NCBI GenBank assembly: GCA_020831635.1
Contig: JAFIGC010000032.1
Coordinates: 1 to 43,891 of the forward strand
DNA: 43,891 bases
DNA from: Verrucomicrobiota bacterium
GTDB lineage: Bacteria > Verrucomicrobiota > Kiritimatiellia > SS1-B-03-39 > UBA6053
Direction: 5' to 3'
Of the stretch, positions 5,363 through 38,326 are shown one piece after another. The notes beneath the pieces are model-generated. The model was not told the origin of the DNA and did not search any database. It saw nothing but the letters and a program-made list of their open reading frames with translations. Made by a program: the position numbers and the translations under genes. Position 1 is the stretch's first letter. Each line of letters starts with the position of its first letter.

Positions 5363-5387
5363 ACACCGCACCCCCAAAGCCCCGTGG

Positions 5388-5483
5388 CCGACAAGCGACG
5401 CTACGCGGCGCACGGGCCGGGGTTGTCCCGAACCGTGGATTGAAATCCACGGCTATGCGTGGGGACGTCGCTACGCGACGAAG
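5388..5483 (+). repeat. 96-bp palindromic element, copy 1
   Basis: This element is the reverse complement of two 96-bp copies at 31933-32028 and 32803-32898. All three contain, in the same order, the hairpin CGTCGC-GTA-GCGACG, a hairpin CCGTGGATT...AATCCACGG, and a third GC-rich hairpin around GCGACGCTACGCGGCG. The middle link between the second and third hairpins varies. This copy lies between the convergent PIN toxin and acs genes, where it may serve both as a terminator; that role is inferred. Confidence 0.75.
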
Positions 5484-12077: not shown

Positions 12078-12350
12078 ATGAAGAAAACGATCATTACCAG
12101 TTTCGCAGCCGCCGCGCTTCTCGCGCTCGGCGTGGGCTGTACCCAGACCGATTCCACCGTGCAAACCAAGCAACGTGCCGTCCAAGGCGGTATCGGTGGG
12201 GCCATCATCGGTGGCGTCATCGGACACCAAAGTGGCCGCGGCCTCGAAGGGGCCGCCGTTGGCGCCGCCGCCGGGACCGCCGCCGGTGCCGTACACGGCA
12301 GTTCCGAGGACGAAATCCGTCAACAGGAACAACAAGGCATGCGTCGTTGA
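12078..12350 (+). CDS. Small glycine-zipper lipoprotein
   Basis: The 90-residue protein has a type II signal peptide with lipobox LGVGC (Cys at residue 21), so it should be lipidated and held in a membrane. Residues 37-75 are a glycine zipper (GGIGGAIIGGVIG, GAAVGAAAGTAAGAV), as in the YMGG/Omp-like glycine-zipper families that insert as helical hairpins. The tail SSEDEIRQQEQQGMRR is charged. GGAG lies 9 nt upstream of the ATG. Related lipoproteins are often linked to envelope stress; the exact role here is unknown. Confidence 0.85.
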   Translation: MKKTIITSFAAAALLALGVGCTQTDSTVQTKQRAVQGGIGGAIIGGVIGHQSGRGLEGAAVGAAAGTAAGAVHGSSEDEIRQQEQQGMRR

Positions 12351-12370
12351 CGCGTGCATTGCACAAACCT

Positions 12371-12418
12371 TTTCCGACGTTCGGAAGCTTGTACCACAAG
12401 TCTTCCGAACGTCGGAAA
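12371..12418 (+). repeat. Perfect 17-bp inverted repeat after the lipoprotein gene
   Basis: Arms 12371-12387 and 12402-12418 are exact complements. The loop itself pairs CTTG (12388-12391) with CAAG (12397-12400), so the stem reaches 21 bp with one bulged T. No T-run follows, which argues against an ordinary terminator; a real terminator lies 20 bp further on. Confidence 0.85.
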
Positions 12419-12438
12419 CCCCAATTTTCATACCATGG

Positions 12439-12463
12439 AGACCGGCACTGCCGGTCTTTTTTT
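12439..12463 (+). terminator. Rho-independent terminator of the lipoprotein gene
   Basis: The stem AGACCGGC-ACT-GCCGGTCT is followed directly by seven T. Confidence 0.9.
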
Positions 12464-12666
12464 GTCCTGAAACCGTGAGATCTTTGCTTTGAATCCGCAC
12501 AATCTCATGGGCTACAAGGAATTGTCGGGAACGCTCGACAGACCGCATGGGTATGCCTCGGTTCCCGACAATTCCTTTCGCTCCATGATCTTGCACGCCT
12601 TCTTTGCAAATATCCCACGGATTCAGGTTGTCCTCAAACCGTGAGATCTTTGCTTTGAATCCGGAC
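12464..12666 (+). repeat. 203-bp element: 37-bp direct repeats around a large palindrome
   Basis: Direct repeats at 12464-12500 and 12630-12666 differ at 2 of 37 positions. Between them is a palindrome with exact 17-bp arms (12516-12532 and 12561-12577) that extends outward imperfectly to about 12497 and 12597, for example CATGG five bases beyond each arm. No ORF is present. It could be a non-autonomous mobile element or a structured RNA; nothing in the sequence decides. Confidence 0.75.
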
Positions 12667-12710
12667 TCGGGTCATAGAACTTAACCCTCACGCCCTCCTA
12701 AAAAAACAAC

Positions 12711-14063
12711 ATGTCTCCCGCCAAATCAAAAACCAAATCCAAAAAACTCTTCGTCCTCGACACCAACGTGATTCTTCACGACAGTAGCTGTTTGGAGCAC
12801 TTCCAGGAACACAACGTGGCCCTGCCCATCACCGTCCTCGAAGAATTGGACAACTTTAAAAAAGGAAACGAGTCCATCAACTTCCACGCCCGGGAGTTCG
12901 TGCGGCGGCTGGACAGCATGAGCGGGGACACCTTGTTTGGCGAAGGCATTCCCCTCGGCAAAGGACGCGGCACCATCCGCATCGCCATCGAACCGGAAAT
13001 CCACCCCAAACTCCATGGCCTCTTCAGTCCCAACAAACCCGACCACCAAATTCTCAACGTGGCCCTGCGTTTGGCCGACCGACATCCCGGATACCGCACC
13101 ATCCTCGTGTCCAAGGACGTCAACCTGCGCATGAAGGCCAAATCCGTGGACCTCAATGCCCAGGACTACAAAACCGACCACGTGGCCGACATCAGTTCCC
13201 TCTACACCGGGCGGCGCATCGTCGAGGACGTGCCCTCCGAAGTGATCGAAGCCCTCTATCAGGTCCCCTTTGAAGTCCAAGCGGATGAAGTGCAAGTCGA
13301 CCCGCCGCTCATCGCCCACGAGAACCTGATCCTGAAAAACGGCAAAAAAAGCGCCTTGGCCACCTACGATCCCCTCACCCATACCCTGAAGCGGGTGGAC
13401 AAACGCAGCGTCTACGGCATCACCCCCCGCAATGCGGAACAGACCTTCGCCCTCGCGGCCCTGTTGAACGACGACATCCCCTTGGTCAGCCTTTCCGGCA
13501 AAGCCGGCACCGGCAAAACCCTCTTGGCCTTGGCCGCGAGTCTGGAAAACCGCCGCGCCTATCGTCAGATATATCTCGCCCGCCCCATCGTCCCTCTCAG
13601 CAACAAAGACATCGGCTATCTGCCCGGAGAAATCAAAGCCAAACTCGACCCCTACATGCAACCCATGTACGACAACCTTTCCGTGATCCAAAACCAACAC
13701 CACGGACACGAGAAAAACCACCAAGGAGAGCAAATCCGCAAAATGCTCGAAGACGAAAAGCTCATGATCTCCGCCCTCAGTTACATCCGCGGACGCAGCC
13801 TCAACCGCATTTATTTCATCGTCGACGAGGCCCAAAACCTCACCCCGCACGAAGTCAAAACCATCATCACCCGCGCCGGAGAAGGTACCAAAGTCGTTTT
13901 CACCGGGGACATTTTTCAGATCGACCATCCCTATCTCGACACCCAGTCCAACGGGCTCACCTACCTCATCGAGCGCATGAAAGGGCAAAAACTCTACGCC
14001 CACATCACCCTCGAACGCGGAGAACGATCCGAACTTTCCGAACTGGCGAGCAATTTGTTGTAA
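12711..14063 (+). CDS. PIN-PhoH fusion ATPase (PhoH2/YlaK family)
   Basis: The 450-residue product joins an N-terminal PIN RNase domain ([12 protein letters not shown] near residue 13, [10 protein letters not shown] near 44, later [14 protein letters not shown]) to a C-terminal PhoH ATPase domain. The ATPase carries Walker [16 protein letters not shown] (about 263-277), Walker [13 protein letters not shown] (about 364-375) and FTGDIFQID (about 396-404). PhoH2 proteins are reported as sequence-specific RNA helicases and RNases, so a role in RNA turnover is likely. No Shine-Dalgarno is seen before the ATG. Confidence 0.93.
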
Positions 14064-31895: not shown

Positions 31896-31932
31896 GTTTT
31901 TATTGAATGTGCGTATTTCTGTAAAAATGCCA

Positions 31933-32028
31933 GTTCGTCGCGTAGCGACGTCCGAGGCATAGCCGTGGATTTCAATCCACGGAATGCCGGACCCAAACAA
32001 GGCCACGCCGCGTAGCGTCGCATGACGG
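31933..32028 (+). repeat. 96-bp palindromic element, copy 2
   Basis: This has the same three-hairpin order as 5388-5483 (inverted) and 32803-32898 (direct, 870 bp away). It lies inside the open tail of RhuM fragment A. Confidence 0.85.
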
Positions 32029-32163
32029 ACCTGGGGGTTTGAACCCCATCCGATTTTTCGGAGGCGACAGTTGTCCGGAAATCCCGGACTCCGGGTCACG
32101 CTCAACCTCATCGAAAAGGTTCTTGAGCCGCCTGTTTTCCTGCAAGTAAACAGAGGGCGAACG

Positions 32164-32180
32164 ATTCGGAATTTCCGAAT
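32164..32180 (+). repeat. Palindrome at the RhuM truncation point, copy A
   Basis: ATTCGGAA-T-TTCCGAAT marks the point where RhuM homology ends. The equivalent at 33034-33050 is ATCCGGAA-T-TTCCGGAT: one pair changed from T:A to C:G with pairing kept. Confidence 0.8.
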
Positions 32181-32466
32181 AGTTGACTCCGGGTCAATTT
32201 CCCCGCTTTCATATAGGGTTTTCAGGTGCTCATTGACAGTAGGCACCTCCACTTCAAAGAGATCCGCCATCAGCTTCTGCGAAAGCCAGATCGTCTCATT
32301 CTCAAAACGGCATTCGACACGACTCTTTCCATCCTCCGTGGTGTAGAGGAGAAATTCGCCGGTGGATTGGGGATTGGATTCTGTGGTTGACATTTTTAGG
32401 GTAAAAGTCGTTTGGTTACTTATCAGAATATGGATTTAGCCGGTCTGAAGATGTCGATGTCACAAG

Positions 32467-32625: not shown

Positions 32626-33254
32626 CCGCAGAACTCCTTCACGCTGGCGGTGTTGCTATAGCGTATGCGATATCGGCCAAGCAGCATGTTAATTTTCACG
32701 GGTAACCCCTCTGCGGGTTGACTCCTCCGCCTCAATTCGTCGCACAGCGAAATCCGAGGCATCTGGAGGAGGCCAACGCCAGCGCCCGGGGCATCCACTC
32801 CACTTCGTCGCGTAGCGACGTCCGAGGCATAGCCGTGGATTTCAATCCACGGAAAGCCGGAACCAAACAAGGACGCGCCGCGTAGCGTCGCCTGACGGAC
32901 CTGGGGGTTTGAACCCCATCCGATTTTTCGGAGGCGGCAGTTGTCCGGAAATCCCGGACTCCTGGTCACGCTCACCCTCATCGAAAAGGTTCTTGAGCCG
33001 TCTGTTTTCCTGCAAGTAAACAGAGGGCGAACCATCCGGAATTTCCGGATAGTTGCTTCCGGGGCGAGTTCCGCTTCCTCATATGGATTCTGAAGGTGTT
33101 CGTTGATCGTACGGACATCGCGATCAAATAGCTCCGCCATCAGTGCCTGCGAAAGCCAGATCGTCTCATTCTCAAAACGGCATTCGACACGACTCTTTCC
33201 ATCCTCCGTGGTGTAGAGGAGAAATTCGCCGATTTTATTATTGTGGGTGGTCAT
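32622..33254 (-). pseudogene. Truncated RhuM-like gene, fragment B, running into repeat DNA
   Basis: This is a second RhuM N-terminus (MTTHNNKIGEFLLYTTEDGK, ETIWLSQALMAELFDRDVR, ATIRKFRMV) with a tail made of the same repeat DNA as fragment A, 870 bp apart with no gap between the copies. The first ~85 coding bases are identical to fragment A, the DNA-binding-like middle differs clearly, and the repeat tail is again almost identical. The start at 33254 lies 46 bp after the STAND ATPase stop. It is longer than fragment A because a degenerate extra element follows. Probably non-functional. Confidence 0.7.
32803..32898 (+). repeat. 96-bp palindromic element, copy 3
   Basis: This is nearly identical to copy 2 at an offset of exactly 870 bp. 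A degraded fourth relative (TTCGTCGCACAGCGA) lies just before it, around 32738-32766. Confidence 0.85.
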
Positions 33255-37941: not shown

Positions 37942-38326
37942 CTTTGTTCTCGTCGTAAAGGCAAGCCCCAAGGGGGCGTTACATTCCAGCCCGGGGCAAC
38001 GCCCCGGGTGGGGAGGTTCTCCCCGTGTTGACGTGGTCTGAAGGACCACCGCATCCCGCGGTGCGCGCGCAAAATGCCCCATACCACCGTGATGCGGCGG
38101 TCCTTCAGACCGCTGATATTCCCTGCGATTCTATTTCCCGGGGCGATGCCCCGGGCTGGAATGCGGCCGCCCCTTTGGGGCTGGTGTGGACCCATCACCC
38201 CAAGCCGTCGATGCGACGGTCCTTCAGGCCGCGTGGACCTTATTGCGTCCGGAACTCCGGGGCGATGACCCGGGCTGAGTTGCGTCGCTCCTTTGGAGCT
38301 GAATACGCCCATTTTGTTCTTCGTCT
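37942..38326 (+). repeat. Hairpin repeat array between fic and the hsdS unit
   Basis: No gene. Two hairpin types alternate: CCCGGGGC-AAC-GCCCCGGG at 37990-38008, its relatives at 38137-38155 and about 38257-38275; and GGTC-TGAAG-GACC types at 38035-38047, 38098-38112 and 38218-38232. The repeats are similar but not identical, suggesting an old tandem or nested insertion of palindromic elements. Confidence 0.8.

Follow-up and report, generated by a model that had tools for sequence, protein, structure and literature searches.

A dispersed 162-bp palindromic MITE beside phoH with ends of the IS1380 type

The palindromic repeat beside phoH in the window, the stretch of 43,891 nucleotides of Verrucomicrobiota DNA analysed here, is very probably a non-autonomous MITE (12466-12627) whose ends are cut by an IS1380-family transposase, in an explanation that joins this mobility with adjoining insertions, template switching and decay by deletion. 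The transposase, present in the lineage now or formerly, would cut the ends and paste the element into AT-rich intergenic sites. Most likely the element is selfish and serves no dedicated function for phoH. A repeat that had been left unexplained is thereby settled as mobile DNA, and the likely family of its transposase can be named.

Results

The repeat unit and its locus

The real repeat unit is a 162-bp imperfect palindrome on the forward strand (12466-12627, CCTGAAACCGTGAG...CACGGATTCAGG), which opens with CCTGAA, closes with TTCAGG and is too short for a transposase. Its inverted-repeat arms (12466-12532 and 12561-12627) measure 67 nt each at 75% complementarity, and their exact 17-bp inner portions (12516-12532 and 12561-12577) form an inner hairpin on the forward strand (12516-12577), the loop of which holds a short sub-stem. 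The initial annotation had correctly described the exact 17-bp arms and their imperfect outward continuation; its palindrome length of ~100 bp falls short of the measured span of 162 bp. Folded as RNA, the palindrome reaches -75.1 kcal/mol (z = -9.35), and none of 200 shuffles was as good. The left terminal inverted repeat (12466-12481, forward strand) reads CCTGAAACCGTGAGAT and the right one (12612-12627, reverse strand) reads CCTGAATCCGTGGGAT from the outside in, each being one base off CCTGAATCCGTGAGAT, the end of an IS1380-family IS in the same-genus genome G003.

Direct repeats of 39 nt and 95% identity (12462-12500 and 12628-12666) accompany the palindrome. The 37-bp repeats reported earlier (12464-12500 and 12630-12666) are real and match at 35 of 37 positions, but they are not the boundaries of a 203-bp element as had been proposed. 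The second of them is a truncated copy: 12632-12666 (forward strand), with the sequence CCTCAAACCGTGAGATCTTTGCTTTGAATCCGGAC, corresponds to the left end of this same element and breaks off after 32-35 bp. The architecture is a 162-bp element followed by TTGT and by 35 bp of a second, truncated copy, not a 203-bp element. The target duplication of the full copy comprises a left TTGT (12462-12465), set against a norm of 5 bp in the MITE family, and a right TTGT (12628-12631), in which only four bases match, one T short of the expected TTTGT.

The region targeted by the insertion is a terminator-like hairpin with a T tract (12437-12465, forward strand; stem 12437-12459, then TTTTGTCCTG), located downstream of a small glycine-zipper lipoprotein gene that is called from a weak match (37.9 bits against a cut-off of 175 bits). 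Also downstream of this gene, 12371-12418 contains an exact inverted repeat of 17 bp (TTTCCGACGTTCGGAAG) that may be a first terminator-like hairpin ahead of the one at 12437; a similar but imperfect hairpin occupies the same place in G003. The name phoH is that of the initial annotation, and the gene matches PhoH2 models below cut-off (274.7 against 680 bits). The suggestion that the second repeat carries the phoH promoter gained no support, as a weak test directed at sigma-70-like promoters returned 0 sites at 12340-12740 against 0.2 in shuffles.

Presence/absence variation was found at the one site examined. G003 is syntenic with the window from the lipoprotein gene through to phoH and lacks the element there. 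In G007, from another genus, the corresponding interval is short and also without it, the absence being clear and the exact site not. G003 reads TTGTCCTGAATTAACCC at the insertion site, which may be a 6-7 bp remnant left by an earlier insertion; the site would then not be a clean empty one.

Copies, target duplications and insertion sites

When a 251-bp region was used as query against the host genome, a draft assembly of 6.0 Mb in 308 contigs, 40 scored forward matches at 85-100% identity were obtained, aligning to roughly query 27-188, i.e. 12466-12627. These were the best 40 of 166 first-look candidates, so that the genome holds at least 40 matches, and the search for further copies proposed in the initial annotation thus recovered many dispersed ones. 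The loci fetched from the host genome contain 44 full-length copies in addition to many truncated ones, and same-genus genomes supplied 5 more full-length copies (49 in all). Patterns for the two element ends, with up to 3 mismatches, gave 91 and 171 matches in the host genome, and the reversed-pattern control gave 0. The palindrome and its repeats are not a chance arrangement, since the sequence recurs across the host genome and the end-pattern control was empty. Among the 173 element ends in the fetched host loci, 97 are paired in full or mini elements, 24 are solo at contig edges and 52 are solo in contig interiors; the ends are conserved over 39 aligned copies.

Beyond the host, the MITE was present in all three same-genus genomes and once in another genus (G009, 78% identity), and it was not found in 53 of the 58 genomes searched, a set that includes the host genome. 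Exact-pattern matches in named genomes comprised 14 stretches, in MAGs titled Verrucomicrobia or PVC group bacterium. A plasmid collection, from which records near the host genome may be missing, yielded no match.

Exact 5-bp duplications flank 15 of the 48 copies with enough flank for these statistics (shuffled mean 0.57, maximum 4 in 2000), and the flanks agree at 4 or 5 of 5 bases in 33 of 48 (shuffled mean 3.2, maximum 10). None of the 48 has an exact 6-bp match, and exact 4-bp matches occur in 3 against 0.67 by shuffling. The window copy's own target duplication is weak, because TTGT amounts to 4 bp only and the family-wide excess at 4 bp is this small. The five bases to the left of the element are A or T at 199 of 241 positions, compared with 397 of 680 at a greater distance. 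Of 46 insertions (3 of the 49 full copies were dropped for short flanks), 35 fall outside any ORF of at least 100 aa; for 920 random positions taken in these loci the figures are 130 outside and 790 inside. The ORF calling was crude and counted the window copy inside a 192-aa ORF that is probably spurious. By these ORFs, 16 of the 46 insertions lie between convergent genes and 11 between divergent genes.

In sum, the repeat is short and multi-copy, with terminal inverted repeats, a target duplication of fixed length and presence/absence variation at one site, the features by which a MITE is recognised.

Other repeats were noted as well. In the window, 37966-38008 and 38137-38179 form a 43-nt inverted repeat, 84% complementary and 128 nt apart. 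Another dispersed repeat is represented by a 300-bp pair at 90% (31930-32229 and 32800-33099) and by 5375-5482; it has a ~117-bp core with CCGTGGATTTCAATCCACGG, which occurs at no fewer than 40 places in the host genome (at least 40, the best 40 of 78 being scored). Several of these places show an oppositely oriented second match ~110-155 bp away, and this repeat may be a large palindrome too.

A probable IS1380-family partner

In G003, L154:599-2274 is a 1676-bp IS with CCTGAATCCGTGAGAT at both ends, the ends being identical over 16 bp, and it is flanked by an exact 5-bp duplication (TCAAT/TCAAT). Its 443-aa transposase matches the IS1380 model NF033539 at 294.9 bits (cut-off 180). The 16-bp end of this IS is the consensus end of the MITE, from which the window copy differs by 1 base per side. 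Sharing between the MITE and the IS is confined to ~16-17 bp at the ends, which does not account for the MITE interior.

The agreement of ends and duplication length with the G003 IS suggests that the MITE is probably mobilised by an IS1380-family transposase. PF13701 has matches in 17 of the 58 genomes, G003 among them, and the G003 transposase as query found matches in only G003, G022 and G040. The G040 and G022 proteins show 54-60% identity over the larger matches, and one G040 element has the ends CCTGAATCCGTTAG and CCTGAATCCGTGAG. Neither the PF13701 search nor the G003 protein search returned an IS1380 transposase in the multi-contig draft of the host, and none was found in the multi-contig drafts G001 and G002, which for drafts does not prove absence. 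Because the searches found no transposase in the host draft, mobilisation is argued from the ends, and no resident pair is claimed.

The sequence at the contig edge of C68, next to one MITE end, was considered as a possible partner and rejected: it belongs to another multicopy end block and apparently breaks into a copy of the MITE. Six host contigs (C68, C87, C239, C292, C298 and C302) carry a common 52-54-bp block at their ends, which is apparently the end of another multicopy element.

The high copy number, the mostly intergenic placement and the palindromic form would also suit a REP/BIME-type repeat moved by a RAYT (Y1) transposase. This reading is given next to no probability, since 5-bp duplications flank the copies and the ends match those of a DDE-type IS1380 element. 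Such duplications are not known from Y1 transposition. The proposal in the initial annotation that the sequence is a miniature transposable element is supported by its copy number, terminal inverted repeats and 5-bp duplications, its absence in two relatives and the matching IS1380-family ends.

Adjoining insertions and proposed decay products

At the window locus the full copy adjoins the 35-bp fragment, with TTGT in between. Another element's end that points away at an offset of 4-6 bp, with at most 2 mismatches, was found at 4 of the 49 full copies (C72, which is the window, C144, C25 and C183), and therefore the bases flanking an existing copy can serve as the target of a new one. A looser definition gave 7 of 98 sides, compared with 258 of 8183 random places. 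In an extension test the neighbouring fragments stopped at 32 bp (C72), 26 bp (C25) and 20 bp (C183). The order of events at the window locus may be reconstructed as follows: a first copy would have inserted after the terminator of the upstream gene and decayed to its 35-bp left end, and a second copy would later have inserted directly beside this end, re-using its flanking bases.

A composite 203-bp unit has also been considered, in which the 37-bp direct repeats are functional ends or a product of recombination (a tandem dimer or a transposition intermediate). The 95% identity of the repeats, the mere 4 bp between full copy and fragment and the similar abutting geometry at C183, C144 and C25 speak for it. 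It is nevertheless highly unlikely, given that a neighbouring end at 4-6 bp accompanies only those 4 of 49 full copies, that most other copies have unrelated sequences on either side of ends reading CCTGAA...TTCAGG or nearly so, and that the neighbouring fragments end at differing points (32, 26 and 20 bp). Moreover, no second locus with the whole 203-bp unit occurs among the matches listed, the longest of which reaches query 212 (C183).

Adjoining insertions of the 162-bp element are the preferred reading. Its copies would further decay when deletions occur between short direct repeats, leaving solo ends and mini elements of ~52 bp. A deletion between ATCTCATGG and ATCTCACGG would yield such minis. 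The corresponding junction pattern has 10 matches, some decayed at the left and three with exact 5-bp repeats (GTTCA, TGAAA and ATAAA). Solo ends might instead arise from IS1380 transposition that uses a single authentic end. At the 52 interior solo ends, which include the minis C251:14720, C222:67594 and C229, a 5-bp repeat after a CAGG-like site was seen in 3 cases against 0.76 shuffled, a weak signal that 25 of 500 shuffles equalled. In the relevant part of PMC9330008, ISPme1 and ISEcp1 are described as able to use an IR-like downstream site together with one authentic end.

Covariation between the palindrome arms

Paired changes between the arms were counted in an alignment of 39 of 50 copies, 11 with indels or shifted ends having been left out. 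Changes on both sides were found at 15 of 57 pairs against 3.8 by shuffling, with 0 of 500 shuffles as high, and sliding the partner by 1-3 columns reduced the count to 2-5 pairs. Further pair types were not raised (22 against 21.4 shuffled; 214 of 500 shuffles as high). Single changes over 61 copies, with 3 partial same-genus copies dropped, comprised 26 G-T, 78 A-C and 77 other cells. On a rough tree built on 162 columns, for which event counts are approximate, 127 single changes lead away from a Watson-Crick pair (25 to G-T, 36 to A-C and 66 to other mismatches), and 10 double changes lead from one Watson-Crick pair to another, 3 of them being transversions. The double changes at 59/104 and 62/101, three bases apart, are common to the same three copies, and copy L204 has two double changes of its own. 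Inverted loops, a further mark of template switching, occurred in 0 of 61 copies.

Selection on an RNA stem would favour G-U steps on one strand, whereas in template switching a change of any kind is copied into the opposite arm. Template switching has been proposed as a route to compensatory change in RNA stems in the part of PMC8794818 that deals with it. Covariation without a clear G-U preference, as observed here, is explained no worse by DNA template switching than by RNA selection, and the pairing of the long palindrome would be maintained mostly through template switching between its arms during replication.

Alternatively, the palindrome could be a functional RNA gene or an mRNA 3'-end stabiliser, kept by selection for the hairpin transcript and spread as a MITE. 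The very stable fold and the strong covariation (15 of 57 pairs against 3.8) are consistent with this, as is the location of 16 of 46 insertions between convergent genes; 11 of 46, however, lie between divergent genes. The excess of A-C over G-T single changes (78 against 26 cells; 36 against 25 tree events) leaves an RNA from the minus strand possible, because A-C would be the wobble-tolerant class on that strand, but 28 of the 78 A-C cells stem from one pair, and single changes of the wobble and non-wobble kinds occur at similar frequency, with no clear wobble preference. In addition, the 3 transversions among the 10 double changes cannot pass via a G-U step, the further pair types stay at shuffle level and the window contains no Rfam family at gathering score. 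Selection for a transcript is thus considered unlikely, and the RNA gene offered as a second option in the initial annotation went without support, both from the paired changes lacking a G-U preference and from Rfam. If the route at the DNA level were ignored, the covariation seen here could be mistaken for proof that a functional RNA exists, and the many-copy MITE family allows compensatory changes in hairpins to be compared with and without RNA selection.

A parallel MITE in another family

G022, which belongs to another family of the class, contains IS1380 ISs with the ends CCTGAATCCGTCAG, and an exact 5-bp repeat flanks 1 of the 3 that were inspected (L190 only). The same genome has a 163-bp palindromic hairpin MITE of its own with CCTGGATCCGTCAG ends. 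It is present in at least 40 copies at 98-100% identity, the best 40 of 204 candidates having been scored, and folds with z = -11.35. Exact 5-bp repeats (TCTAA, CTTAA and ATAGA) flank 3 of 4 inspected copies. Among the 29 listed IS1380 transposase matches in this two-contig genome (e.g. L187 and L188), 28 are interrupted by in-frame stop codons, of which many are TAG; decay or recoding is a possibility.

Mobility or retention that depends on IS1380 may involve the hairpin as well as the ends, because two MITEs (162 and 163 bp) that differ in their interiors, each an imperfect hairpin over nearly its full length with IS1380-type ends, have been amplified in two families of one class. Template-switch copying would then keep the arms in register, and covariation resembling that of an RNA would arise in its absence. 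This idea is tentative and considered improbable.

Discussion

Stem-loop MITEs of 100-200 bp are well known from bacteria, according to the pertinent parts of PMC2229807 and PMC10969869. New are the MITE family itself, its IS1380 link and the parallel in G022, bacterial MITEs as such being already known. No description of an IS1380-derived MITE, or of MITEs of this class, was recognised in the top-ranked part of the literature, a coverage that does not establish absence.

Among the elements treated in these sources, YPAL/RU-2 of Yersinia (~168 bp; PMC2229807, in the part concerned with it) resembles the present MITE in size, palindromic form, intergenic location and target duplications, and in that empty and filled sites have been compared. 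Its duplications are described there as varying between 3 and 26 bp, and the inverted repeats of YPAL as internal, whereas here the duplication is 5 bp and the repeats are terminal. Likewise, Correia/NEMIS, ERIC and RUP, as presented in parts of PMC2229807 and PMC10969869, are multi-copy and stem-loop-forming elements of ~100-200 bp like the window MITE; they have TA termini (Table 1 of PMC2229807), in contrast to the CCTGAA ends that the window MITE has in common with the G003 IS1380 element.

The IS1380 family includes IS1247 of Paracoccus, listed in PMC3281130, as far as its entry there goes, with 1672 bp, IR 16/13 and DR 5, as well as ISEcp1 and ISPme1. With its G003 partner in this family the MITE shares the 16-bp ends and the 5-bp duplication, but the window element encodes nothing and only the ends are common. 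A further likeness is to the 163-bp MITE of G022, which has a near-identical length, 75-77% self-complementarity, similar ends and 5-bp duplications, with IS1380 copies in the same genome. Its end is CCTGGATCCGTCAG instead of CCTGAATCCGTGAG, and the interiors are unlike: the G022 MITE is unmatched in G003, of the same genus as the host, and the window element is unmatched in G022.
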